Both the position numbers and the translations under genes were made by a program. A stretch of DNA of 64,000 nucleotides from Microbacterium galbinum (GTDB taxonomy: Bacteria; Actinomycetota; Actinomycetes; Actinomycetales; Microbacteriaceae): NCBI RefSeq assembly GCF_023091225.1, contig NZ_JAHWXM010000002.1, positions 248,001-312,000 on the forward strand, written 5' to 3'. Positions 15,614 to 63,898 of the stretch are shown here, in pieces. The stretch's first letter is position 1. Each line of letters opens with the position of its first letter. The notes under the pieces are model-generated. The model was not told the origin of the DNA. It saw only the letters and a program-made list of their open reading frames with translations, and did no database searches.

Positions 15614-15780
15614 CGTTCCTCTTGAAAGTCTCACGGGGGCAGGGTGGCCCCGATCATCGGATATCGGATAGGCGACGATCGCCGCGTTGCACGGCCGGAT
15701 TCGATGTTAACCATCGCACCTGAGAAATACCCAGATGCCGCGGTCCATGTCATACTGAGGGCGACCCAATGAGGGGTCAC

Positions 15781-15836
15781 GGCGGGTCGAACCGCCGCAT
15801 CCATCACTACGGATCGTCCGGCACGTACCTGCCGGT
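15781..15836 (+). promoter_or_regulatory. Structured leader before the sugar-ABC ATPase gene
   Basis: Two perfect hairpins precede the ribosome site of the next gene: CGGCGG/CCGCCG (15781-15786 with 15793-15798) and CCGGCA/TGCCGG (15819-15824 with 15831-15836). A CATACT -10-like hexamer lies around 15751. They indicate a 5' leader of roughly 90 bases. No known riboswitch is recognised. Confidence 0.35.
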
Positions 15837-53104: not shown

Positions 53105-53434
53105 TCATTCGCCCTCGGGTGGCCCGGCACGGGCTCGGGAGACGGCAACGACTCCAGCGTACGCCGACTCCACCTGCACGGTCGCCACGAAGCCCTCGAT
53201 CGAGCATCCGGTGAGGGTCGCACCCGCAGCCCCGGCCACCCGCGCGGCGACGGCGCAGGGCTCGTCGGCGACGACGACGGCACCGCTGACGGCATCCGCC
53301 GCGGCGAGCGCCGCGGCATCCGCCGCGCCGGCGACCCGTTGCGCGGTGACGGCGGCGCCACCGACCGCGGCAAGGCCTATGGCGAGGCCGGCCGCTGTCA
53401 CCAGAACGCCGGTGGCGAGCGCGGATCCGGCCAT
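53105..53434 (-). CDS. TadE-like protein of the helicase/secretion neighbourhood (Rv3656c-like)
   Basis: A 109-residue exported or membrane protein with an N-terminal helix (ALATGVLVTAAGLAIGLAAVGG) and an ADAAALAAAD segment typical of the TadE/TadG pseudopilin group. The ATG at 53434 overlaps the stop of the preceding TadE gene. It is the last gene of a tad (tight adherence) pilus cluster whose upstream part has been displaced by the element at 53.9 kb. Confidence 0.75.
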   Translation of the reverse strand: MAGSALATGVLVTAAGLAIGLAAVGGAAVTAQRVAGAADAAALAAADAVSGAVVVADEPCAVAARVAGAAGATLTGCSIEGFVATVQVESAYAGVVAVSRARAGPPEGE

Positions 53435-53790
53435 CAGAGACCACCTGCCAGGGCGCAACTCGATGCCTGCAGCGGCACGGTGAGGAGATTGCCGACGGCC
53501 ACCTCCGCGTGCGCCGTCACGCAGACGAGGTCGCCGGAACTCGCGGACGACATGGTGGCACCCGGCGCCGCGCGCGCCACGGCATCGGCGGCGCGCCCCG
53601 TGTCTTCGCCTCGCCCGAGGAGGCGGGCGGCATCGGCCGCCGCATCCTGCAGAGACACCTGACGCGTGGCGGCGCCGAGCGCTCCGACGCCGAGGGCGAG
53701 CACGAGGACGACCGCCGGCAGCGCGAGGGCCAACTCGGCGGCGACCGATCCCCGGTCACCGCCGAGCCGTGCGAGTCGGAATCGCGGCAT
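53434..53790 (-). CDS. TadE-family pseudopilin
   Basis: A 118-residue protein with the TadE motif: basic head, GDRGSVAAELALALPAVVLVLALGV (Glu after the Ala, as in pseudopilins), then a short C-terminal domain with two cysteines. It starts at ATG 53788-53790, sharing one base with the stop of the truncated pilin gene. Part of the tad cluster. Confidence 0.8.
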   Translation of the reverse strand: MPRFRLARLGGDRGSVAAELALALPAVVLVLALGVGALGAATRQVSLQDAAADAARLLGRGEDTGRAADAVARAAPGATMSSASSGDLVCVTAHAEVAVGNLLTVPLQASSCALAGGL

Positions 53791-53900
53791 CACGCCACGG
53801 TCAGCGCCCGGCGCACCAGGTCGGTGAGGATGCCGCGTACCTCGTCGGAGCGCATGATGACGACGAGCAGACCCGCGAAGGCCACGGCGGCCACCGTGGA
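53790..53900 (-). pseudogene. 3' remnant of a DUF4244 (Flp-like) pilin gene
   Basis: The last 36 codons and stop of a small pilin-like protein: STVAAVAFAGLLVVIM then RSDEVRGILTDLVRRALTVA. This is the C-terminal helix and tail of DUF4244 proteins, which normally precede TadE in actinobacterial tad clusters. Upstream of codon TCC at 53898-53900 the reading changes to unrelated sequence, without a start codon or the expected TAEYA-type segment, exactly where the integrase region begins. The 5' part of the gene should lie at the far end of the element, outside the window. Confidence 0.75.
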
Positions 53901-53932
53901 GGAGTGAAGACATACTCTGGGAGGATGGCCGT
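53895..53932. other. Probable left attachment site of the integrative element
   Basis: The junction between the pilin remnant and the integrase leader. The recombined core must lie close to 53895-53932, since conserved pilin sequence ends near 53898 and the integrase starts at 53933. Large serine integrases typically sit right beside their attachment site. The partner site is not in the window. Confidence 0.5.
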
Positions 53933-55420
53933 ATGATCCTTTCAGACCCTTACGTCCCGCGCGTTGCAATCTACGCCAGGCAGTCAGTCGATGAGGATCA
54001 AGGCATCGCTCAGCAGCTCGACGATTGTCGCGCAGAAGTGCAGCGCCGTGGATGGCGCGTCGTCTCGGAACACCAGGATAACGACACCTCCGCGTCCAAG
54101 GAACGAGGACCGAAGACCGCGTGGTCAGCGATGCTGAAGGCGTTCGACGCCGGTGAGTTCGACACCGTCATCGTTACCGAAACGTCCCGCATCACGCGCA
54201 GCCTTGTCGACGTGCTCGACATTCGACCGCCGCGCCGCGACATCCGCGTCGTCGTGATCCGCGAGGGCATCGATACTGAGCTCGATGATTTCATGCTCAA
54301 GCAGCTCGTTCTCCTGGCGGAGCGTGAAGTCCGAATCAAGACGGAGAGAGCCGCACGCTATGCCGTGGGGCGGCGGCTCGCAGGGCATCCCACGCCAGGC
54401 AAGCCCCCACACGGGTACAGCTGGGTGCCGAGCATCGAACGCGATGCTGCCGGCACGAGGTACAGAGTCAACGACGCCGAAGCAGCAGACGTTCGACACA
54501 TCTTCCGCGAGTTCCTCGCTGGGGCTCCACTCGCTCAGATCGCTCGAGATCTCAGCGACTCTGGCAGGTTGACGCGACGAGGCGTGCGCTGGCAGTCAAC
54601 GACAGTGCGACGGGTCCTGCTGAACCCGCTCTACGTTGCGCTCCTCCCGCCAGCTCAGCCGACGGGCGAGTTCGACGCGACCGCCATCGACCTTGAGTCA
54701 TGCACGCCTGGCGCATGGGAACCCATTATCGAGCGCGAACAGCTAGTTGCAAGCCGGGGACGCCTGATCGGCGTACGACCGAACCACAGCGGCACTGCAC
54801 GAAAGTGGCTCCTATCCGGGCTCGCTGTGTGCGCGATATGCTCGCGCTCCGTCCGTTCGGCCCGCGGCGAAACCCATCCCACAGGACGTAAGGGTGGCGG
54901 TGGCGCGGCGCCGTCGCGTCGCTACCATGCGTATCGGTGCCCAAATAGTCACTTCATGCGCAACGGCGACATCATCGACCAGTACGTCGCGGAGGTCTGC
55001 ATCGCGCGCCTCGCAGAGAAAGACGCTGCCGACCTCGTGGCCCCGCGTTCAGACTCGATCGACATCGCCATGCTGAACTCGACGCGCGAAGCGTTGAAGC
55101 GCCGCCGACAGTCGATCGCGAGCTTTGTCGCGCGCGGGCTGATGACCGACACCGATGCAGACGAGAGCCTGGTGAGCATCGCAGGCGAGCTACAGACCAT
55201 CGACGACCAGATAGCGCGCGCTGTTCTGAATGACCCGCTGGCTGAGCTGGCGCTTGTCGACGACGTCCGAGCATGGTGGGGTGGGGCGACTTTGGCTCGA
55301 CGACGCCTCCTCGTCGAGACGCTCATGGTGGTCAGAATCCACCCGGTGGGCCACGGCAAGCGAGTCACGAATCTCGACGATGCCGCAGACAGCGTCACCT
55401 TGCAGTGGACCAAGAGGTGA
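53933..55420 (+). CDS. Large serine recombinase (integrase)
   Basis: A 495-residue site-specific recombinase. The N-terminal resolvase domain has the catalytic serine in AIYARQSVDEDQGIAQQ (Ser18) and TETSRITRSLVDVLD. The recombinase domain begins about residue 150 (HPTPGKPPHGYSWV), with NPLYVALL. A zinc ribbon follows (LAVCAICSRSVRSARG and YRCPNSH), then a coiled-coil segment (about residues 370-440) typical of phage-type large serine integrases. GGGAGGA lies eight bases before ATG 53933. It would carry out integration and excision at the site that cuts the DUF4244 gene. Confidence 0.93.
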   Translation: MILSDPYVPRVAIYARQSVDEDQGIAQQLDDCRAEVQRRGWRVVSEHQDNDTSASKERGPKTAWSAMLKAFDAGEFDTVIVTETSRITRSLVDVLDIRPPRRDIRVVVIREGIDTELDDFMLKQLVLLAEREVRIKTERAARYAVGRRLAGHPTPGKPPHGYSWVPSIERDAAGTRYRVNDAEAADVRHIFREFLAGAPLAQIARDLSDSGRLTRRGVRWQSTTVRRVLLNPLYVALLPPAQPTGEFDATAIDLESCTPGAWEPIIEREQLVASRGRLIGVRPNHSGTARKWLLSGLAVCAICSRSVRSARGETHPTGRKGGGGAAPSRRYHAYRCPNSHFMRNGDIIDQYVAEVCIARLAEKDAADLVAPRSDSIDIAMLNSTREALKRRRQSIASFVARGLMTDTDADESLVSIAGELQTIDDQIARAVLNDPLAELALVDDVRAWWGGATLARRRLLVETLMVVRIHPVGHGKRVTNLDDAADSVTLQWTKR

Positions 55421-55472
55421 AGCGTATGCCTGCGGTCTCTCGGCGGCCTTCCGCCTGGTTATCGACGGCGGT

Positions 55473-56318
55473 ATGGTGCACCGCATGGCTCCGAACCAGC
55501 ACCTGTACTTCTTGGTACACGCCTCGCATGAGCGGTTCAAGGTTGGCCTAGCGACGAACCCCCGGTTGCGCTGGGCCGGGATCCAGCCTCGTGCTCAGAC
55601 AGATTTCGCGAAGTCGCTCGTATTCGACGTCAGCGGCGAAGTTCGAGCCAAGTGGACCGAGGAGACACTCCACCGTGCGTTATCCGACTCGCGCTTCAGG
55701 ATGCCCTCCAACATCGCCGGCCACAGTGAGTGGTTCAACTTCACTGCCTTCGACAGAGCGCGCGCGTACGCGAGCTCGAACCGCGAATTCCTCGGCATCA
55801 GCGAGGGGTACACGATCCCCGCTCAGCCGCGGCCGCCCTCTGGAGGGGACGGAGGTACGCGAACTACGTCGCGAATGTCTCTAGCAGAGCGGATTGCACT
55901 ATCCGCTGTGTACAACGCATCCACTGCGGACAAGGTCGAGGCATACACATCAAGACTGATCGCTAGCGGCGCACTTCTCGGTTCCGCTGCCGATGAGCGC
56001 GGGGAGATGAATCTCTATCTGCATCTAGACCGCATCACACTCGAAGAGGTTCGTTCGTCAAACCAAATCCCTATGTGGGAATCCGGCCCGCGATTCGCGC
56101 ACATCTTCGGGAGCATGAGTTGGAACGACACCTTCATCCAGCTTGCCGTCCACTCGCCGTTCGACGGGTCAGCGGAGCGCGACTTCGCTACGTGGATACC
56201 GACAGCTCCCGGATTCGAACGAGTTCGTTTGGCTATTGACCGCCTCATAGCAGCGACGCCCACCCTCCCCGTTGCGCACCCCGCACGCGTCCTGGATTCT
56301 CACGATTTCTGGCCGTAG
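55473..56318 (+). CDS. GIY-YIG-like (T5orf172/Mug113-type) protein
   Basis: A 281-residue protein (277 from the second ATG, 55485). The N-terminal 100 residues, QHLYFLVHASHERFKVGLAT then NPRLRWAGIQP, ELRHAL-like ETLHRALSDSRF and SEWFNF, match the T5orf172 branch of GIY-YIG nucleases found in phages and plasmids; the GIY and YIG triplets are replaced by YFLV and KVGLA. The rest (about 180 residues) is unrecognised. TATGGT at 55472-55477 could be the -10 of a leaderless message starting at 55485. It follows the integrase by 52 bases. Confidence 0.6.
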   Translation: MVHRMAPNQHLYFLVHASHERFKVGLATNPRLRWAGIQPRAQTDFAKSLVFDVSGEVRAKWTEETLHRALSDSRFRMPSNIAGHSEWFNFTAFDRARAYASSNREFLGISEGYTIPAQPRPPSGGDGGTRTTSRMSLAERIALSAVYNASTADKVEAYTSRLIASGALLGSAADERGEMNLYLHLDRITLEEVRSSNQIPMWESGPRFAHIFGSMSWNDTFIQLAVHSPFDGSAERDFATWIPTAPGFERVRLAIDRLIAATPTLPVAHPARVLDSHDFWP

Positions 56319-56413
56319 CCAACTCTGTGCAAGCCTCGGTACAGGCTTCGGAGGACCAACGATACGAACCACGTTGACCGCGCCATCATGACACGTCTCA
56401 AGCTATACCGACA

Positions 56414-56612
56414 GGTGGTCTCCAACCGGCCTTGACGTGACCACTATATGGTCACGATGTCGGATAGGGTGATTGAGATGGTCGGCATGTGGCCACCTCA
56501 TGGCCGGGCGAAGACCAGGTCGCGGCCACTTTGCGACTCCCTCATTTCTCGAGTTCGCAGGTGTCCACTATGTGGTTTCTTGGTGGTCTCCCGGTGACCA
56601 CGGGGAGACCAC
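56414..56612. repeat. Cluster of GTGGTC/GACCAC inverted repeats in a convergent intergenic region
   Basis: The 359-base gap between two convergent genes (56319-56677) contains no gene but many related dyads: GGTGGTCTCC (56414-56423); CGTGACCA-CTATA-TGGTCACG (56436-56456); GTGGCCAC (56489-56496); CCACTATGTGG (56565-56575); and GTGGTCTCCC (56583-56592) with GGGAGACCAC (56603-56612). Two TAGGGT words (56465, 56613 region) accompany them. Convergent genes need no promoter here, so an iteron array, partition site or transfer origin is more likely than an operator. Confidence 0.7.
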
Positions 56613-56677
56613 TAGGGTAAGTCGCCGCAGCACGCGTACAGCGTTAGCGCAGGCACCGTACCGAGCGATCCGATGTA

Positions 56678-57331
56678 TCAGCGCCACCGCTGTGCCTCAA
56701 GGGTCCTTTCGAGCGCGTCGATCCCGCCGCCGATTCGGAACCATTCAACTGGCGTGTGCTGACCCTCGGCGATCATCGTTGATTGAGGCGTGGACATCAG
56801 CCCAGATACCGAGATCCAGTGCTGGCCCCCAAGGAGCGCGATGATCTCGGTCAGGTGCGGCAGAAGTTTGCCGGGTGACGACAGGCTGAACTGCCACCAC
56901 GGGAAGCGGCGATGACCCGCGACATCGACGGCGTAAAGTCTCCCCGCGGTTACCAGGTCGTCGAGTTCCTGATCGTTGAGATCCAAGAAGCCTCGAACGG
57001 CGTCGTCCGACATGCTTCGGTGAAGCCCCGCGACGAGGGTGTTCGCGGCGATGGCGGGCAACGAGCCCCGACGCACTCGTAGCTCGATGTCGTCGAATTC
57101 CTCGGCAGTGAACTCACCGGAGGTGATCAGGAAGTTGATCTCGTCGGGGGACAACGATGGCTCGTCGACTATCGGGCGTTCGGCAAGAAGCGACTCGGTC
57201 AGCGCCCGGGCGATGTAGTCACCGTCCCCGTTGAGGCGGGCGATCGCATCCTCCAACGCGCGCATCGCGTCTTCTGAGGGACGAGGCGTCAGGTGTGCAG
57301 TGGCTCTCGATCGGGATTCGTCTTTGGTCAT
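56678..57331 (-). CDS. HTH protein with antitoxin-like (Xre/MbcA/ParS-type) C-terminus
   Basis: A 217-residue protein. The middle part (RGFLDLNDQELDDLVTAGRL then YAVDVAGHRRFPWWQF) reads as an excisionase-like helix-turn-helix with wing. The C-terminal HTPVEWFRIGGGIDALERTL resembles the toxin-binding domain of Xre/MbcA antitoxins. No RES or other toxin gene is adjacent. It may instead be the element's regulator, a nucleoid-type or copy-control protein; the repeat cluster at 56.4-56.6 kb next to its 3' end could be its binding array. It starts at ATG 57331. Confidence 0.6.
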   Translation of the reverse strand: MTKDESRSRATAHLTPRPSEDAMRALEDAIARLNGDGDYIARALTESLLAERPIVDEPSLSPDEINFLITSGEFTAEEFDDIELRVRRGSLPAIAANTLVAGLHRSMSDDAVRGFLDLNDQELDDLVTAGRLYAVDVAGHRRFPWWQFSLSSPGKLLPHLTEIIALLGGQHWISVSGLMSTPQSTMIAEGQHTPVEWFRIGGGIDALERTLEAQRWR

Positions 57332-57361
57332 GCGACCAGCGTAGAAGCGGCCGGGGACGTT

Positions 57362-57395
57362 GAGGAGGCGCAGCCCTATTCGGCTGCGCCTCCTC
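57362..57395 (-). terminator. Terminator of the polB-mob operon
   Basis: A 14-base perfect stem, GAGGAGGCGCAGCC (57362-57375) with GGCTGCGCCTCCTC (57382-57395), loop CTATTC, 11 bases after the stop of the MobV-like gene on the minus strand. Confidence 0.75.
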
Positions 57396-57405
57396 CAAGC
57401 GAGCT

Positions 57406-58560
57406 CTAGAGTTCGAGTGCGTCGCCCGGATTGTCGATCTGAGTCGAATATGGGCCTAGCTTGTCTCTGATCTCGCTACGCATCTTGATCCGATCCGCTT
57501 CGAACCGCTTTCGGATCGGCTGCCCCTTGACGGTCGTCTTGTCGAGCCAGTGCTCGAAGAAGGGCGGGAGGATATCCAGACGCTGATTGTTCAACGCCAG
57601 GCGGTCGCGCTCGGCTGCGGCTTCTTCGCGAGCACGTTCTGCCGCCAAGTGCGCCTCGCGAGCGCGTAACGAGGCGGTTCTTGCCGCCGCAGCTTCATCC
57701 GCCGCTCTTGCTTGCGCGGCAGCAGCTTCTCGTTGGCGCTCGGCAACCAGCATCTCGCGTTCCGCAAGATCCTTCTCCCGCTCATCCAGGGCGGTGGAGC
57801 GGTTGGCGAGGCTCTTGTTTCTCTGCAGACTTACGTCCAGTTCGAACTCGAGTGCACTCGTTGCGTCACGGAGCCGGTCCGCCTTCGCCTGGAACTCACT
57901 GCTACTGAGGTGCTCGCGTGAACGCTCGGTGACCCGATACTCAACGTTGTAGCCTCCAGCGGCCACGGCGTCGCGGACTCCCCGGTGCTGCCGCTTAAGG
58001 TCCGCCGGCCCCTTAAAGAAGTCCTTCTGGGCAAGCCGTCCGTCAGGCGTGATGGGGGTGATCATGAGCTGCAGCCCGGGATTCACCTCATCGAGGTGCA
58101 TCGACATGCCAATGATGTTCTCTTCTCCGAACTCGCCACGAGCCCAACGGATCGCAGCGTGCGTGTACTCGGCTGCTCGCCGATTCAACCCCTCCTCGCG
58201 CCAATCGGGGTTGTGCTCTTCGAACCACTTCGGATCGAGCTGGAGCACCACGCCTCGGATGAGAACGGCATCCTTCCGCAGCGCACGCGTGACCGTGCTG
58301 AGACGCTGCTGAAGGTAGTCATCGAACTCGTCGCTCGGCGGCCGACCGTCGACCGACTGAGGACGCCTGTAGCCGCCCTTGCCGTCGTTCACGAAGGTGC
58401 TGTTCAGTACCGTCCGGTCCGTCACGATGTTGCGATTGGCCTGAGGAAATGAGAAGCCCGCCGCTTGATCCACGTCTCTCGCGATGTGTCGGAAGAAGGC
58501 CTTCGCGTGTCCTCCGCGTCCCACCTTGTGGGACACGTCGTAGGTCATGGTGTAGCTCAT
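57406..58560 (-). CDS. MobV/Pre-family relaxase homologue with altered metal site
   Basis: A 384-residue protein. The N-terminal 230 residues match MobV (plasmid recombination/mobilisation) proteins: NIVTDRTVLNSTF, ALRKDAVLIRGVVLQLD, EENIIGMSMHLDEVNPGLQL, MITPITPDGRLAQKDFFKGP. The family metal motif HxDExxPHxH reads H155-L-D-E-V-N-P-G162-L-Q164, so the last two His are missing; a His equivalent to the MobM nucleophile may be His25 (FFRHIARD). A long coiled coil follows (about residues 240-330, rich in Arg/Glu/Ala). The ATG at 58558-58560 overlaps the stop of the preceding ORF. It could nick at an origin, or be a non-catalytic DNA-binding derivative. Confidence 0.8.
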   Translation of the reverse strand: MSYTMTYDVSHKVGRGGHAKAFFRHIARDVDQAAGFSFPQANRNIVTDRTVLNSTFVNDGKGGYRRPQSVDGRPPSDEFDDYLQQRLSTVTRALRKDAVLIRGVVLQLDPKWFEEHNPDWREEGLNRRAAEYTHAAIRWARGEFGEENIIGMSMHLDEVNPGLQLMITPITPDGRLAQKDFFKGPADLKRQHRGVRDAVAAGGYNVEYRVTERSREHLSSSEFQAKADRLRDATSALEFELDVSLQRNKSLANRSTALDEREKDLAEREMLVAERQREAAAAQARAADEAAAARTASLRAREAHLAAERAREEAAAERDRLALNNQRLDILPPFFEHWLDKTTVKGQPIRKRFEADRIKMRSEIRDKLGPYSTQIDNPGDALEL

Positions 58561-58826
58561 GCGTCGCTCCTCTCGACCTCTTCCGTGGCCTGTTCCGTCC
58601 TCGACGCAACAGACCACGGAGCCTCCGGCGGCTCTCCCGAGGGGCTTCTCCTGTCGCTCATCCGAACACCACCCCTGTGCTTCCTTCGGTGGGTGGTGTT
58701 CTCCTTCGCGTCAGAAGAAGGTGTAGCCCCATACACTTCTGAGCCCGCTTCGCTCGTCAGAAGCTCCTGGTGCCCTCCGGTGGCCGCTGCGCGGGGCAGG
58801 CAACAACAGCGTCGACGAACGCTCAT
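58557..58826 (-). CDS. 89-codon ORF linking polB and mob
   Basis: An ORF whose start overlaps the polB stop (ATGA at 58823-58826) and whose stop overlaps the mob start (ATGA at 58557-58560). The product (MSVRRRCCCLPRAAATGGHQ...) has no recognised domain and an odd composition. Its DNA contains an 11-base perfect hairpin, GAACACCACCC (58664-58674) with GGGTGGTGTTC (58691-58701), and another dyad GTGTA/TACAC around 58721-58736. It may be a true small protein, or translated spacer that carries a regulatory or origin structure and couples the two genes. Confidence 0.4.
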   Translation of the reverse strand: MSVRRRCCCLPRAAATGGHQELLTSEAGSEVYGATPSSDAKENTTHRRKHRGGVRMSDRRSPSGEPPEAPWSVASRTEQATEEVERSDA

Positions 58827-61783
58827 GACGCGCCTCCCAGGGCCGGCAGCGGAAGATCGTTGATCCGCGCGGTCATCATCTGCGAGAGCCAAGGCTCGAG
58901 CTCTGAGAGGGGCAGCATCTGAGATGTTCGCTCAGGTCGACGAGCGTTCTTCCAGTCGCCTTCGCTCACCGTGCCGAGCCCCCATCGCGCGAGCCACTCG
59001 AGACGCTCGGCAACGGTGAGCTCACGAGTCGCCAGCGTTGGAATCGTGACGACGCCCTGTCGGTGCGCCATGACGATCGACATCAGCACAGCGCGACGAG
59101 GGGTGACGATCCTGTGCCCTTTGCCGTGAGCGAATCGAACGTGCCAATCCCTCCATTCGTCGACTGTTCGTAGACAGCCAGTGTTCGCAATCTCTCGAGC
59201 GATGGCTCGTGCGCGCAGACACTCCTCGATGGTTTCCCACGGAGCTGTCGGGAAAGTCGCCAACTCGTGTGTGGACCCGTCTGGCAGAGGAACTCGCTCT
59301 GCCACGATCGAATCCATCAGCGGTCGACGTTTGAGGTCGAAATCCATGCTGACGGCACGCTCGACGTGGGACGGAACGAAATCCTTGCGCCCTTCCTTCC
59401 GAGAGAGTTCCTGAAAGCTAGGGAATCGCCGGTAGGCGTTCTCGACCCGACCCTCGCGGGTGACAACGCTCGCCAGGAGTTCTTCACGATCCTCTCGACT
59501 ATCGGCGGTGATCCCCTCCGAGCGCTTCAGCCCGTTATGCGCACAGACGCCGTTCACGCTGAGCGAGACGTTGCCGCGCGTGGTGAAGTTCACCAGGTCG
59601 TTCTGCTCGTGCTTGGCCTCCCAGATGGTCGGGTCTCCGGTGAGCGCTGTACGTGCCTCCCTGAGGTGGCCAGCGAGACCGAAAAGATCAAGAGCTTCGA
59701 CGTCACCTACTGTCCAATCAGTGATGAAGCCATCTGTCGTGACCGAATACACCTGGCCGCCTCGTTCAGCGATCTGATTCATCGTCGCCAGAAGTTGGGC
59801 CCGGACGAGGCTGGTCGTGGTCGCTGCGTGAGACGGGCTCGAGATCGCGGATCCACCCACGTTGTCCATCTCCTGCTTGTAGGCATCCCACGAGCGCTGT
59901 TCCGCGACATCCTGCGCGGTCTTCCCGTAGATCGTGTTAACACTCGTCTTGAGCGTCTGTTCTTCGAGCGATCCCTTCCCGAAGAGACGTTTGGCGGTCG
60001 CCCGGTCCTCGATCAGTTGGCGCACACCATGACGCAGCGAAAGGCTCAGCGAGCCATCGGAGCGTCGAGCGACTCGTCCGGCAAACCCGATCTGGCAGAA
60101 AACGGTCGCGCCGAGCTGGAGCGCGAGCCAGAGTTCAGGCCCGCAGACCCAGGTACCGGCTACTCCCTCGCTCGTGCGCGGATAAATGAGCGTTCCGTCT
60201 CCCACGATCGGGAGCGTCGGATAAGAGACATTCTCGGGGAAGTCGAACGACACAAACCCGACGAAAGAAGAGGTGGGTTCCGGCACGTCATCGCGAGTCA
60301 GATGCCGCTCATGGATGACGTTCTCGATGCACCCCGTCTCCCAGTCGAGATCGGGCACGAGCGCCATGGCTGTTGGGTACGCGTTTTTCGCATCGATGTC
60401 GATGGTGCGCATTGGGTAGTAGCCCGGCGCAGGACAGCCGTTCAAGCCGCCGTGATACGCAGAAGCGAAGGCTTTGCTGAGCTGAGCCGCAGCGCCATCG
60501 ACAGGCGCCCGTCCTCGCTTCGCGTAGAACGTCAATTCGTCGCCTTCCTCGACCACATCCACCGCTTCCTCCTCAACGAGCCCCGAGAATGCGAGCCTGA
60601 ACTCCTTTGGCGTAGTAACCCCGAAGTACTCGGACCCTGAGGCAACAAGGGACGCGGCGGCGCCACCGCCGAGCGTTACGGGAGGGAGCACGCCTTCGCC
60701 CCAAATTCGCGCAAGAAACTCCACGACGATCTCCGCGTCGTTCACGCCGTAGTCCAGAAATTCGCTGAGATGATGGTGGCGGTATTCAGCCATCCGCGAG
60801 ATCCAGTCGCCTGGCACTTCGAGCTTCTCGACGCCAGCGGCCATGCCGATGGCCGCGAGCGTCCTCTGCCCTGCCGGAGCGTGTGTCATCGTGTCGCGGA
60901 CGGTGACGCTCAACGACCGCCACCAGCCGTAGTCGTCGCCTCGCTGATCGCCGTTTTGAAGGCGGAAGGGCAAAAGCGTAACGAGCCCGCCGGCAGCGGA
61001 CGTCAGCCGCGTGAGGTGATCCGTAACCCGGCCGCCACCTCGGAATGTCGTGAGGTCTGCCGCACCGAAGTGACAGGCGAGCACGATGGGAACGCGCCAG
61101 GGTGCGAGCGCAGCCGCGCGCGCCTCCCAATCGCGTGGATCGGCGGCCCAGGCGCGAGCGGCATCCCCGGAAGGCCCGGCGCCAGCGCGCTCAAGGACAG
61201 TACTTCGGCGCACGCCGCGGTCGTCCACGCCGTCCCGAACGAGAGGCGATCGCCACAGAGACGCAGCTTGAACGACCTCCCAGAGGGCAGTGTGCATCCC
61301 GATGCGTCGCCCGTTTAGCGGCAAGATGACGATCTGAACCATCAGCGTCGGATCATTCAGGTCGGGCGTCGCGAACTGCCAGCTGTCAACGTTCCGCACG
61401 CCCCCGAGGGTCGTGAACTCCGTGTCGAAGCCCACGATGATCGCTCGGCGCTCAGTTCCCATCGAGCGGACCGAGACAAGATCACCGAAGTTGGCGCCCG
61501 CGCTGGCGAGAACGCGGGAGTTCGCGCGGCCGGCGGACACGGGGTCATAAGCACGGGGACCCATAGGGGGCTTATGACCCCGCGGCGAGATCCGCGGAAT
61601 ATCAAGGGTTTCATGCGCTCGCTTGCGCTCGATTGCTGGGGGTCTTGTTTGAAGACCCCCAGCAATCGAGCGCATCTGAGCGGTCGGCACTTGACGCGGT
61701 ACCCGGCGGCTAAGTACCTGGAACCGACCGCCGGCGTCTGTCAGCTCTTTCGCTTTCCAGCCTGAGTGAAAGGGAGTGTTCAT
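58823..61783 (-). CDS. Family-B DNA polymerase (protein-primed or piPolB-like)
   Basis: A 986-residue polymerase. Exo I is VGFDTEF (Asp120, Glu122), Exo II lies in LACHFGAADLTTF (Asp243) and Exo III is YGVND (Tyr345, Asp349), so proofreading looks intact. Motif A is DIDAKNAYPTAM (Asp464), motif B LKTSVNTIYGK (Lys612, Tyr619) and motif C YSVTTDGF (Asp684), with Thr where the first Asp of DTD is expected. The A-B and B-C spacings (148 and 72) are close to phi29-type enzymes with TPR insertions. The last 270 residues are unrecognised. ATG 61783 follows GGGGGTG and overlaps the upstream stop. The first 105 residues are poorly structured and cover two large inverted repeats, so a later start is possible. 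Confidence 0.85.
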   Translation of the reverse strand: MNTPFHSGWKAKELTDAGGRFQVLSRRVPRQVPTAQMRSIAGGLQTRPPAIERKRAHETLDIPRISPRGHKPPMGPRAYDPVSAGRANSRVLASAGANFGDLVSVRSMGTERRAIIVGFDTEFTTLGGVRNVDSWQFATPDLNDPTLMVQIVILPLNGRRIGMHTALWEVVQAASLWRSPLVRDGVDDRGVRRSTVLERAGAGPSGDAARAWAADPRDWEARAAALAPWRVPIVLACHFGAADLTTFRGGGRVTDHLTRLTSAAGGLVTLLPFRLQNGDQRGDDYGWWRSLSVTVRDTMTHAPAGQRTLAAIGMAAGVEKLEVPGDWISRMAEYRHHHLSEFLDYGVNDAEIVVEFLARIWGEGVLPPVTLGGGAAASLVASGSEYFGVTTPKEFRLAFSGLVEEEAVDVVEEGDELTFYAKRGRAPVDGAAAQLSKAFASAYHGGLNGCPAPGYYPMRTIDIDAKNAYPTAMALVPDLDWETGCIENVIHERHLTRDDVPEPTSSFVGFVSFDFPENVSYPTLPIVGDGTLIYPRTSEGVAGTWVCGPELWLALQLGATVFCQIGFAGRVARRSDGSLSLSLRHGVRQLIEDRATAKRLFGKGSLEEQTLKTSVNTIYGKTAQDVAEQRSWDAYKQEMDNVGGSAISSPSHAATTTSLVRAQLLATMNQIAERGGQVYSVTTDGFITDWTVGDVEALDLFGLAGHLREARTALTGDPTIWEAKHEQNDLVNFTTRGNVSLSVNGVCAHNGLKRSEGITADSREDREELLASVVTREGRVENAYRRFPSFQELSRKEGRKDFVPSHVERAVSMDFDLKRRPLMDSIVAERVPLPDGSTHELATFPTAPWETIEECLRARAIAREIANTGCLRTVDEWRDWHVRFAHGKGHRIVTPRRAVLMSIVMAHRQGVVTIPTLATRELTVAERLEWLARWGLGTVSEGDWKNARRPERTSQMLPLSELEPWLSQMMTARINDLPLPALGGAS
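61540..61582. repeat. 13-base inverted repeat near the 5' end of polB
   Basis: Perfect arms CGGGGTCATAAGC (61540-61552) and GCTTATGACCCCG (61570-61582), 17-base spacer. It lies within codons 68-82 of the polymerase gene as read from 61783. Confidence 0.9.
61623..61673. repeat. 23-base perfect inverted repeat near the 5' end of polB
   Basis: The arms at 61623-61645 and 61651-61673 are exact reverse complements over 23 bases, with only a 5-base loop (GTTTG); the left arm starts TGCGCTCGATTG and ends GGGGGTCTT. It is by far the longest short-spaced dyad noticed in the window. No T-run follows on either strand, so it is not a normal intrinsic terminator. It lies in codons 37-54 of polB. Confidence 0.95.
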
Positions 61784-62085
61784 GCGGCACCCCCGATGAT
61801 CACGGCGAGCCGCTCGCGTTGCTCCGCAGTGAGGCGGGGAGCAGCCGCGACGACGCGCGCAACGGCGGAGTCGATCTCCTCAGCTGCGCGCGGTCGGCCG
61901 ATGGCCGGGGTAGCCATCGCATCGAGGTGTGCGGACTGCACATAGATTCGGCGACCGATTCGCTCTGCCGGCAGCGTGCCGTCAGCGATCCACTTACGAA
62001 GTGTCGAATAGCCGATCCGTCGAGCGTGGGCAGCTTCCTGGAGGGTGAGTAGTGGCCGGGTCTGGGTTACGGCGTGAGCAGGCAA
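61780..62085 (-). CDS. Excisionase-like helix-turn-helix protein
   Basis: A 101-residue protein. Residues about 10-60 (LLTLQEAAHARRIGYSTLRK then WIADGTLPAERIGRRIYVQ) are a MerR/excisionase-type winged helix. A TTG start at 62083-62085 is chosen because AGAGGAG lies five bases upstream; an ATG at 62199 would add 38 residues of unlikely sequence. It is the first gene of the operon and overlaps polB (ATGA). It may act as recombination directionality factor for the serine integrase, or regulate the polB operon. Confidence 0.7.
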   Translation of the reverse strand: MPAHAVTQTRPLLTLQEAAHARRIGYSTLRKWIADGTLPAERIGRRIYVQSAHLDAMATPAIGRPRAAEEIDSAVARVVAAAPRLTAEQRERLAVIIGGAA

Positions 62086-62578
62086 GCCCGCTCCTCTCTT
62101 TCGAGAAGGAGCACCTGCATGTCTCACGGGACACCTGCCAGTGCCACCCCGCCAGGATCGCGTCTTTACAATCCGTTGTTCACCAGAGCGTTGACCCAAG
62201 GTTCAAGCACGCACTGGTGATCGCATTCGCCTTGGGCTTTGGCCTCTTCTGTAAGACGGGCGGGCGGCCATCCCCGGTTCCGTCTGGTGCAGCCCGAAGC
62301 TTTATCGAACCGCTACTAAATTAGCGATCAGTAGCGCTCATGTCAATCGAATCTGCTCATCTACGAGCAAGAAATCCATTATCAGCGAGTCCCGCGGTTG
62401 TCTTCGTATTGCTGAGCCCGAAACGAAGCTGATGGCACGGGGCTCGTCGACGATCGCGGGTGCGTGAAGTCTTGACGCGGCCAATTGAAGGTCGATCCGA
62501 CTGATCCGACTCTGTTGGCACTGGGCTGATGGTGACCGCACCGCTGTGAGTCGATCGTCTCGGTCCTAGAATGTGCGC
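62086..62578. other. Divergent, AT-richer intergenic region of the element
   Basis: 493 bases between the divergent HTH-polB operon and the DUF2510 gene. It holds an inverted repeat CGCTACT (62311-62317) / AGTAGCG (62330-62336) around an AT-rich core, a 9-base tandem GATCCGACT (62494-62502, 62503-62511), a GATAAAG -10-like box for the minus strand near 62300, and TAGAAT (62567-62572) six bases before GTG 62579 on the plus strand. No convincing gene is seen. Confidence 0.5.
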
Positions 62579-63898
62579 GTGACCTCGATACCAGCTGATT
62601 GGCACCCCGACCCGACTGGCCGATTTGAGCGGAGATTCTGGGACGGAGCGGCCTGGACCGAGCATGTATGGACCGCAGGTCGACAATCGGTCGACCCTTT
62701 AGTGTCGTCGGGAGTAGCGCACGAGAGTCGCGACGTGGTGCACAGCAGAACGGTTGTCCGTCAAGGTTTTGCCACCCCGGATGCTATCGGGCATCAGGCA
62801 CCGAACGCCGGCAGTGTCGTGGAAGCGAGAATAACCGCGGCGACACCGCTGTCGTCGCGCTCTTTCCCCGGATGGCCTGAAAAGAAGAGGGCACGCAAGA
62901 CCGCCGAGGTCGTCCGATTCCTCCTCCCCGACGAATCCATAATCTACTTCGGTCCCGGGTCGAGCCTGCGACCAGCAGGGAACGAACTCGTAATTACCAA
63001 CGTGCGGGTGTTCACGTACCTACCCGAGCGGATAGCAGCATGCATGGTGCTTGATTCGATCGCCGACATGCAGGTCCTTGACTCCAAACGGACACTGTCT
63101 CTAACGGATCACGCGGGACGCGCGATGAAGGTGAGGGGGTTCGCGGCGGGAGAGGCACCGCACATCCAGGCCGCCCTAGAGGCAGCGCGGGCCAGCCCAC
63201 GGCCAAGCAAAGCGCTAGATGCCATTCGACATGCCGAGGAGACAGCCGCGGAGGCAGCTCGTGTTGCTGCGATGACGATGCACGAGCGCTGGCCGCGAGC
63301 AACGATTCTCGGTAAGCAAACGCGCAAGGGCGAAGAGGCGATCAAGCGGCTGAGCCTCGGGGAGGAAGCCCCGTGGCTTGTGCTTGCTCCTGGCTTCGCT
63401 CAGGGGTTGCTCGTCGCCTTCGAAGACCGTCTCGCAATCATCAAGACCGGTGCAGCGACGAGCTTCATGGCGGGCTCCCTCGGAGGCGAGCGAAGCACGA
63501 CCTTCTACTTCACCGACATCAACGCCATCGAGTACAACTCCGGAATCGCCTCCGGGGTGCTCGAAGTGCTGACAGCCAGCTACCAGGGCAGTGCGAACAA
63601 AGACTTCTGGCGCGGCACGATGGACTCGCGAAATGCGGACAAGAACGACCCGTACACGCTCAGCAACACTCTGCCAATGGCGAAGGTCGTCTACAACGAG
63701 TGGTCCTCGCACATCCAGGAGCTACGGGCACGAATTTCGGCGTCGAAGCGCCCAGCATCAATCGTCATGGCCCCGGCGCCACGCGAGACGTCTTCGGACC
63801 TGGTCAGCCAACTGGAAAGGCTCTCGGCGTTGCGAGCCGCAGACGTCCTCACAGATGAGGAGTTCGTCGCAGCCAAGGCGCGTCTGATGAAATCCTAG
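62579..63898 (+). CDS. DUF2510 - PH-like - SHOCT multidomain protein
   Basis: A 439-residue protein. The N-terminus is a DUF2510 module (ADWHPDPTGRFERRFWDGAAWTEHV split over residues 6-31). Two PH-like regions follow (about 95-180, with IIYFGPGSSLRP and VRVFTYLPE; about 240-370, with LLVAFEDRLAIIKTG and TTFYFTDINAIEY). The C-terminus is a SHOCT motif (LERLSALRAADVLTDEEFVA + AKARL). Such proteins are common in actinobacteria and their phages and plasmids; function unknown. GTG 62579 is preferred as a leaderless start; GTG 62573 is possible. Confidence 0.75.
   Translation: MTSIPADWHPDPTGRFERRFWDGAAWTEHVWTAGRQSVDPLVSSGVAHESRDVVHSRTVVRQGFATPDAIGHQAPNAGSVVEARITAATPLSSRSFPGWPEKKRARKTAEVVRFLLPDESIIYFGPGSSLRPAGNELVITNVRVFTYLPERIAACMVLDSIADMQVLDSKRTLSLTDHAGRAMKVRGFAAGEAPHIQAALEAARASPRPSKALDAIRHAEETAAEAARVAAMTMHERWPRATILGKQTRKGEEAIKRLSLGEEAPWLVLAPGFAQGLLVAFEDRLAIIKTGAATSFMAGSLGGERSTTFYFTDINAIEYNSGIASGVLEVLTASYQGSANKDFWRGTMDSRNADKNDPYTLSNTLPMAKVVYNEWSSHIQELRARISASKRPASIVMAPAPRETSSDLVSQLERLSALRAADVLTDEEFVAAKARLMKS

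Follow-up and report, generated by a model that had tools for sequence, protein, structure and literature searches.

The window analyzed here is a stretch of 64,000 nucleotides from Microbacterium galbinum, positions 248001-312000 of contig C2 (NZ_JAHWXM010000002.1) in a 3.57-Mb genome of four contigs. Near its right end begins an integrative element that carries a large serine integrase gene, overlapping genes for a helix-turn-helix (HTH) protein and a family-B DNA polymerase (PolB), and a gene (mob) for a protein of the MobV family of mobilization proteins, with a folded noncoding region between polB and mob (Table 1). Loci and contigs used for comparison bear L-numbers, and genomes G-numbers. 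An earlier note on this DNA had taken the element to span 53901-63898, which proved to be its left part only. Reading the contig further rightward placed the right end at C2:332085, beyond the window, and the element, bounded by attachment (att) repeats, measures 30,186 bp, of which about 10 kb (the left third) lies inside the window.

Table 1. Features of the left third of the element and its left junction (window coordinates unless preceded by C2).
Feature	Position	Strand	Basis and remarks
TadE	53434-53793		Pfam; next to the flp 3' half
3' half of host flp pilin gene (...AVAFAGLLVVIMRSDEVRGILTDLVRRALTVA)	53792-53899	minus	severed by the insertion
Left attachment repeat, 18 bp, imperfect	53882-53899	none	partner at C2:332068-332085, outside the window
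Large serine integrase, 495 aa	53933-55420	plus	Pfam Resolvase 74.7 bits, Recombinase 42.2 bits; PHROG match
T5orf172 / GIY-YIG-type protein	55473-56318	plus	Pfam; start uncertain
217-aa protein after the MobV-type gene	56678-57331	minus	no Pfam or PHROG match; also in the PolB-less L112 element (38% identity)
MobV-family protein, 384 aa	57406-58560	minus	Mob_Pre 70.3 bits, cut-off 25.5
Noncoding region, formerly "89-codon ORF"	58561-58826	minus	identity, codon statistics
oriT-like core	58581-58738	minus	bipartite hairpin 58641-58730; second hairpin, 3-base loop, 58582-58620
piPolB-type family-B DNA polymerase, 986 aa	58823-61783	minus	motifs, tree, structure model
Helix-turn-helix protein (HTH_17; excisionase-like)	61780-62199	minus	Pfam, PHROG; start uncertain
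DUF2510/SHOCT protein, first cargo gene	62573-63898	plus	Pfam; no tblastn relative in L011 or L021

When the two flanks of the element were joined into a 295-base query, its match in the element's own genome fell into two pieces, bases 1-199 at C2:301701-301899 and bases 182-295 at C2:332068-332181; the 18-base overlap of the two pieces gives the att repeat. Within two 20-kb stretches, the att core, allowing at most one mismatch, occurred only at the two ends of the element, and a tandem of two elements sharing an att site was ruled out because no third core was present at that threshold. The insertion severs a gene for the small Flp pilin of the host Tad locus, with TadE on one side and TadB/TadA-type genes, recognized by eye, on the other. 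The flank-joining query revealed an intact flp site in 50 of 58 other genomes of the genus, a site split at the same place in three (G007, G864 and G856, the last on two contigs), a partial match in one (G854) and no match in four; in two of the three split sites another element was identified. A tRNA gene as target was rejected, the nearest one within the window lying at 46.6 kb. Furthermore, the shift in composition claimed earlier was borne out, as the G+C content per kb was 0.60-0.67 from 54001 on vs 0.65-0.74 before.

The integrase combines the resolvase catalytic domain and the recombinase domain of large serine integrases with a short att core, and its Pfam scores confirm that the element has a large serine integrase of its own. 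A close copy of the element, with an integrase 93% identical, sits in the same flp gene of Microbacteriaceae bacterium PS02344 (L021) and measures about 32.6 kb by an arithmetic estimate, its far end being located in L108. We observed that the integrase gene adjoins the 3' half of flp in the window and the 5' half in L021, i.e. the two copies are inserted in opposite orientations. The junctions fit a crossover at GC, with a predicted attB ACCACGATG-GC-CGCCGTGG and a predicted attP CCACGGTG-GC-TACCGTGG; since this pair is self-complementary, both insertion orientations would be possible. Intact sites in L097-L100 match the predicted attB except for one or two bases. Two other elements occupy the same flp site in the same genus (L109 and L110); their integrases are 33% and 37% identical, and they carry unlike replication-type genes, by eye a primase-like gene and a Rep-like gene, respectively. 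Judged from these junctions, the flp pilin gene is a docking site common to elements of unlike gene content. A second large serine recombinase gene lies within the element to the right of the window (contig C2, L002:14060-15793), beside a truncated S24/UmuD-type gene (15614-15790).

PolB contains the motifs ExoI (GFDTEF), A (DIDAKNAYP), B (KTSVNTIYGK), C (SVTTDGF) and TTRG, of which TR was invariant in 38 aligned rows. Motif C lacks its first aspartate in PolB and in 78 of 78 related rows, whereas phi29, PRD1 and Cp-1 have it; the part of PMC7544198 used here states this loss for primer-independent PolBs (piPolBs). In a tree of the 78 related rows, which included the Staphylococcus epidermidis and Lactobacillus fermentum plasmid enzymes, had three protein-primed enzymes as outgroup and left out the E. 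coli piPolB, PolB was nested in a 23-row actinobacterial clade with a support of 100 and did not cluster with host or ordinary phage polymerases among those compared. Because PolB falls in this well-supported clade of piPolB-type enzymes, the element is, on the evidence of its sequence, a pipolin, as the earlier note had proposed, and it has the recombinase and, at both ends, the att repeats of that class. PolB had no Pfam match and only a weak polymerase match among PHROGs; a sequence search of the PDB returned nothing, and a five-row profile gave only E 0.24 and weaker. Its predicted structure is closest to phi29 DNA polymerase. Of the proteins encoded in the 30 kb, 8 (window) were scanned against PHROGs, 19 (one being the host TadE) against Pfam and 10 against PADLOC, and the rest were assessed by eye; none was recognized as a capsid, portal, terminase, tail or type IV secretion protein. 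A casposon or polinton was rejected, no Cas1 or capsid being recognized.

A scan of genome contigs yielded 150 PolB relatives, of which 80 were kept. Searches for PolB in 57 other relatives, in 393 further genomes of the class and 395 of the phylum (overlapping samples), and in 50,697 phage records gave no match. Viral contigs gave no match in a single-sequence scan and two loci in an alignment-based one. One viral contig (L008:9263-17138) holds two tandem PolB copies with a PF03432 relaxase gene between them and, by eye, phage-like genes upstream. A relative on a Pseudosulfitobacter plasmid (L007) has a short annotated PolB-type gene beside IS66 genes, followed by MobC and a relaxase. In L036, L065 and L026 the PolB matches are fragmented across frames or carry an internal stop, and are probably decaying copies or assembly errors.

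The HTH and PolB genes overlap by 4 bases in the window, in L011 and in L021, and, not counting the window itself, 18 loci have an HTH relative directly upstream of PolB (a short match only in L025). In 17 of 29 actinobacterial or coriobacterial loci, PolB is followed within about 2 kb by a relaxase gene of the same strand, of the PF03432 type in 13 and of the PF01076 type in four (L011, L021, L027 and L032). As for the other 12, the relaxase gene lies about 6 kb off in L026 and beside a second PolB copy in L041, none was found near PolB in six (L024, L033, L034, L036, L044 and L047), and four contigs end too early for a call (L015, L017, L031 and L065). Integrase relatives occur in 10 of the 29 loci and in two Firmicutes loci, some of the matches being partial. 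These counts indicate that the combination of PolB, relaxase and integrase is usual for this branch, and do not support the idea that a PolB-Mob operon with a serine integrase is an undescribed arrangement. PMC9710591, in the part used here, reports relaxases on plasmid pipolins and shows actinobacterial pipolins. Both the pipolin class and the arrangement of PolB followed by a relaxase are already known.

Four minus-strand genes joined by three ATGA overlaps had been described at this locus. The HTH/PolB overlap is real, but the supposed gene between polB and mob, an open reading frame (ORF) of 89 codons, is not a gene, and the overlaps at its two ends are letters only. The intervening DNA is 92% identical to that of L021, vs 77% for PolB and 85% for Mob. 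In the ORF frame, nonsynonymous (dN) and synonymous (dS) divergence from L021 were 0.085 and 0.078, with a dS of 0.53 in Mob and 1.16 in PolB; the corresponding L011 values are unreliable, as an internal stop probably put the codons out of step. Substitutions at the three codon positions (9/5/7 against L021, 11/7/8 against L011) bear no codon signature, L011 has a TAG stop in this frame, and no frame is open across the window, L011 and L021 copies. Because of the missing codon signature, the stop in L011 and the covarying hairpins described below, we conclude from these comparisons that the 89-codon ORF is no gene.

Four 141-base folds of this region (two stretches, both strands) outdid every one of 200 shuffles (z -3.5 to -3.9), and so did a 61-base piece containing the second hairpin (z -5.1), whereas a 41-base piece that truncates a stem folded no better than shuffles (z -0.46). 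The same folded region was found in another genus of the family (L112, from G984), with a MobV-type protein 54% identical and the 217-aa neighbor gene; there a helicase-like gene (by eye) stands in PolB's place, and no PolB lies within the 4 kb examined. This arrangement suggests an exchangeable mobilization module made of mob, the 217-aa gene and the folded region. The structure derived from the four sequences comprises 46 pairs, with 92.9% of cells paired vs 84.4 in shuffles, and 13 two-sided pair changes vs 3.6, a number that none of 500 shuffles reached. A 20-base spacer of the core is invariant in all four. Sliding the partners lowered pairing to 39-52%, a control biased in favor of the structure, which was derived from the same sequences. 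Across 398 genomes of the family, the 158-position model detected the window copy, the L112 copy (echoed on the opposite strand) and a single weak, partial match. A MobV-type gene follows in all four places holding the full structure. The oriT-like region had no plasmid match, a 26-base piece of it had no exact match in viral contigs, and Rfam gave nothing above the gathering score (one hit below it, L19 leader, E 0.44). With several inverted repeats directly before mob, the region resembles the MOBV1 origin of transfer (oriT) of pMV158 as laid out in the portion of PMC5863519 used here.

Weak plus-strand matches to the model were observed within 1.1 kb after PolB in five (L012, L016, L018, L020 and L036; E 1e-4 to 0.06, rough values) of 13 sister loci scanned, the others being L013, L014, L019, L022, L023, L025, L026 and L028. 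The absence of a match after PolB in these eight speaks against wide conservation, and a wider scan of 49 sources returned the same five only. In four of the five, the match lies within a roughly 200-codon ORF that precedes the relaxase gene. Comparisons among L012, L013 and L014 revealed weak or no bias by codon position in the first half of this ORF (8/11/14, 13/10/19 and 13/14/19) and a strong codon bias in the second (6/8/45, 15/11/48 and 14/5/43); the halves are not clearly separated in the L020/L022 and L016/L018 comparisons. Stems 9-13 bp long that close 16-base loops are present in the window, L021, L112, L014, L018 and L020, and are not listed for L011, L012, L013, L016, L022, L023, L025 and L028. 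We regard a wider reach of the folded region among pipolins as a lead.

The Mob domain is homologous to MobM of pMV158 (PDB 4lvi, E 1.1e-6). Its motif I, HxxR, is kept (H25-I-A-R28), with histidine and arginine invariant in five sequences. Motif III reads HLDEVNPGLQ in the window, HLDEVNPGLH in L011 and L021, and HLDEYNPQLQ in L112; it is complete in Gordonia L027 and lacks only the last histidine in L032. The MOBV1 motifs given in the part of PMC5090054 used here are HxxR, NYD/EL and HxDExxPHUH. Because motif III departs from HxDExxPHUH, we file the protein, on its sequence, as descended from MOBV and not as a canonical MOBV relaxase. The earlier proposal of an origin nicked by Mob therefore stands in part: a structured oriT-like region was found, but Mob lacks two of the three motif-III histidines. 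PolB and the integrase are under purifying selection, as is Mob, whose dN/dS of 0.14-0.24 argues against decay; Mob may have a different metal site or a changed role. Relatives of Mob were detected by tblastn in 631 plasmids, and a Mob-based scan of viral contigs gave no match.

In our view, the locus is most likely occupied by a 30.2-kb integrative element of the pipolin class that combines a serine integrase, an HTH-PolB pair, a Mob protein with oriT-like hairpins and a cargo with several defense-type genes. The split gene, the att repeats, the intact sites in relatives, the copy in opposite orientation, the kinship to piPolBs, the covariation of the hairpins and the purifying selection are read from the sequences; from them we infer excision, primer-free synthesis, binding or nicking by Mob, and transfer. 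The serine integrase would recombine attP with the flp site and excise the element as a circle, on which the HTH-PolB pair would supply a polymerase copying the element's DNA without a primer. The MobV-type protein would bind the hairpins between polB and mob, which would act as oriT, and a helper conjugation system would mobilize the circle before its re-insertion into flp.

Several observations weigh against this model. The two missing histidines make nicking by Mob doubtful, and its structure model is poor (mean predicted local distance difference test 53.6). The KTRG motif is characteristic of piPolB; PolB has T in place of its K, a residue seldom seen at this position in the other rows as well. 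L112, set against the other three sequences, accounts for all 13 two-sided pair changes, and the inner stem of L011 has an altered 5' arm, with 3 of 11 pairs broken. Furthermore, given the second serine recombinase inside the element, part of the cargo may have a history of its own; this recombinase may mark an older nested insertion.

The hairpins could instead serve PolB as an origin of replication or of second-strand synthesis, or form an RNA structure controlling mob translation, a reading that we consider possible without favoring it. They sit inside the operon, between polB and mob, and weak structure matches lie a few hundred bases after PolB in pipolins whose relaxase is of another family (L012, L016, L018 and L020) and in L036, for which the vicinity of PolB yielded no relaxase; this would be odd if the relaxase alone reads the hairpins. 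However, L112 couples the region to the MobV-type and 217-aa genes with no PolB in the 4 kb examined, a MobV-type gene follows every full structure, and the several inverted repeats just before mob have the layout of the pMV158 oriT (PMC5863519, in part). It is likewise rather doubtful that the MobV-type protein has decayed into an inactive relaxase, leaving the element to move only by excision, by transduction or not at all. Motif III does deviate in the window, L011, L021 and L112, but motif I is intact, the dN/dS of Mob is low, and the first histidine of PHUH is absent also from the protein that is only 54% identical, suggesting that its loss is old and was kept.

A protein-primed polymerase of a linear element would account for the predicted fold of PolB, nearest phi29 polymerase, and PMC7544198, in the part used here, places piPolBs and protein-primed PolBs in one cluster. 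This appears improbable, as motif C reads TTDG vs YCDTDS/YADTDS in phi29, PRD1 and Cp-1, the three protein-primed enzymes fall outside in the tree (where they were used as outgroup), and integration at att sites implies a circle, relatives being found on circular plasmids. Still less credible is a conventional prophage or conjugative element that acquired a polymerase: the serine integrase and the excisionase-like HTH protein resemble phage proteins, and PolB stands beside phage-like genes (by eye) in viral contig L008, but no structural or type IV secretion gene was recognized in the 30 kb, by the scans listed above and otherwise by eye, and the phage records searched gave no PolB match. We give almost no credence to the 89-codon ORF as a real small protein, such as a MobC-like accessory. 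Its frame is uninterrupted in the window and L021, with a four-base overlap at either end, yet it meets a stop in L011, lacks codon-position bias and has a dN about equal to its dS, which is far below that of its neighbors.

More speculatively, a joint reading, which we think unlikely as a whole, would place at the center of actinobacterial pipolins a unit for both transfer and replication. Its constant part would be a folded DNA site lying between polB and a relaxase gene whose family is exchanged (MOBP, MOBV, MobV with an altered metal site), and PolB would synthesize the second strand once single-stranded DNA has been transferred, with no need for a primase. In Microbacteriaceae, the MobV-type protein would then have changed from a metal-dependent nickase into a protein that binds the hairpins, or into a nickase whose metal site is different.

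The element shares with pipolins as described in parts of PMC7385651 and PMC9710591 a piPolB-type marker polymerase, a recombinase, att repeats, excisionase-like and mobilization proteins, and an occurrence in Actinobacteria. E. coli pipolins, in the descriptions used here, have tyrosine recombinases and a tRNA gene as target, whereas this element has a large serine integrase and sits in a protein gene; unlike the pipolins described, it has a MobV-type protein with an altered motif III, and no uracil-DNA glycosylase was recognized in it. The S. epidermidis pSE-12228-03 and L. fermentum pLME300 replicons (L004 and L010) are small circles that also pair a related PolB with a relaxase, but they are MOBP-typed plasmids with small recombinases and their PolBs are 22-28% identical. 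The actinobacterial relatives L012-L032 (Arthrobacter, Sinomonas, Corynebacterium, Kocuria and others) have the HTH-PolB pair, a downstream relaxase and often a related serine integrase; they differ in that 13 have a PF03432-type relaxase in place of the oriT-like region and the MobV-type protein, preceded in several by two ORFs that were named by eye, one small and coiled-coil, the other MobC-like. The likeness to pMV158 lies in the homologous Mob domain and in several inverted repeats directly before mob (PMC5863519, in part); MobM differs by its motif III, and the oriT likeness is one of layout. ATE-1 and Tn4451, integrative mobilizable elements with MobV, are likewise integrated with no conjugation pore recognized; the term "DNA polymerase" is absent from the text of review PMC5704250, which thus describes none with such an enzyme, and this element has PolB. 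The literature searched showed no pipolin with an flp site, this Mob variant or the folded region, a search that did not cover the main pipolin papers and so does not establish absence from print.

A compact set of polymerase, folded DNA site and relaxase-type protein offers a direct test bed for the idea that primer-independent polymerases of mobile elements serve conjugative transfer. Furthermore, short ORFs before mob genes, such as the 89 codons here, can be folded DNA and not genes, and in some relatives the MobC-like ORF is perhaps likewise folded DNA over its first half.

Beside the integrase gene, the T5orf172/GIY-YIG gene is kept in L011 and L021 with a dN/dS of 0.29-0.45. The right 20 kb contains genes for two UzuA-type proteins, an HNH nuclease and an AbiEi_2 protein, as well as, by eye, an AAA ATPase and DUF2510-type proteins. 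A Septu-like pair at L003:2068-4717 consists of a PtuA-like ATPase and an HNH partner, for which the best PADLOC names are PDC-M01A/B. By its gene content, the right 20 kb appears to be a cargo with several defense-type genes.

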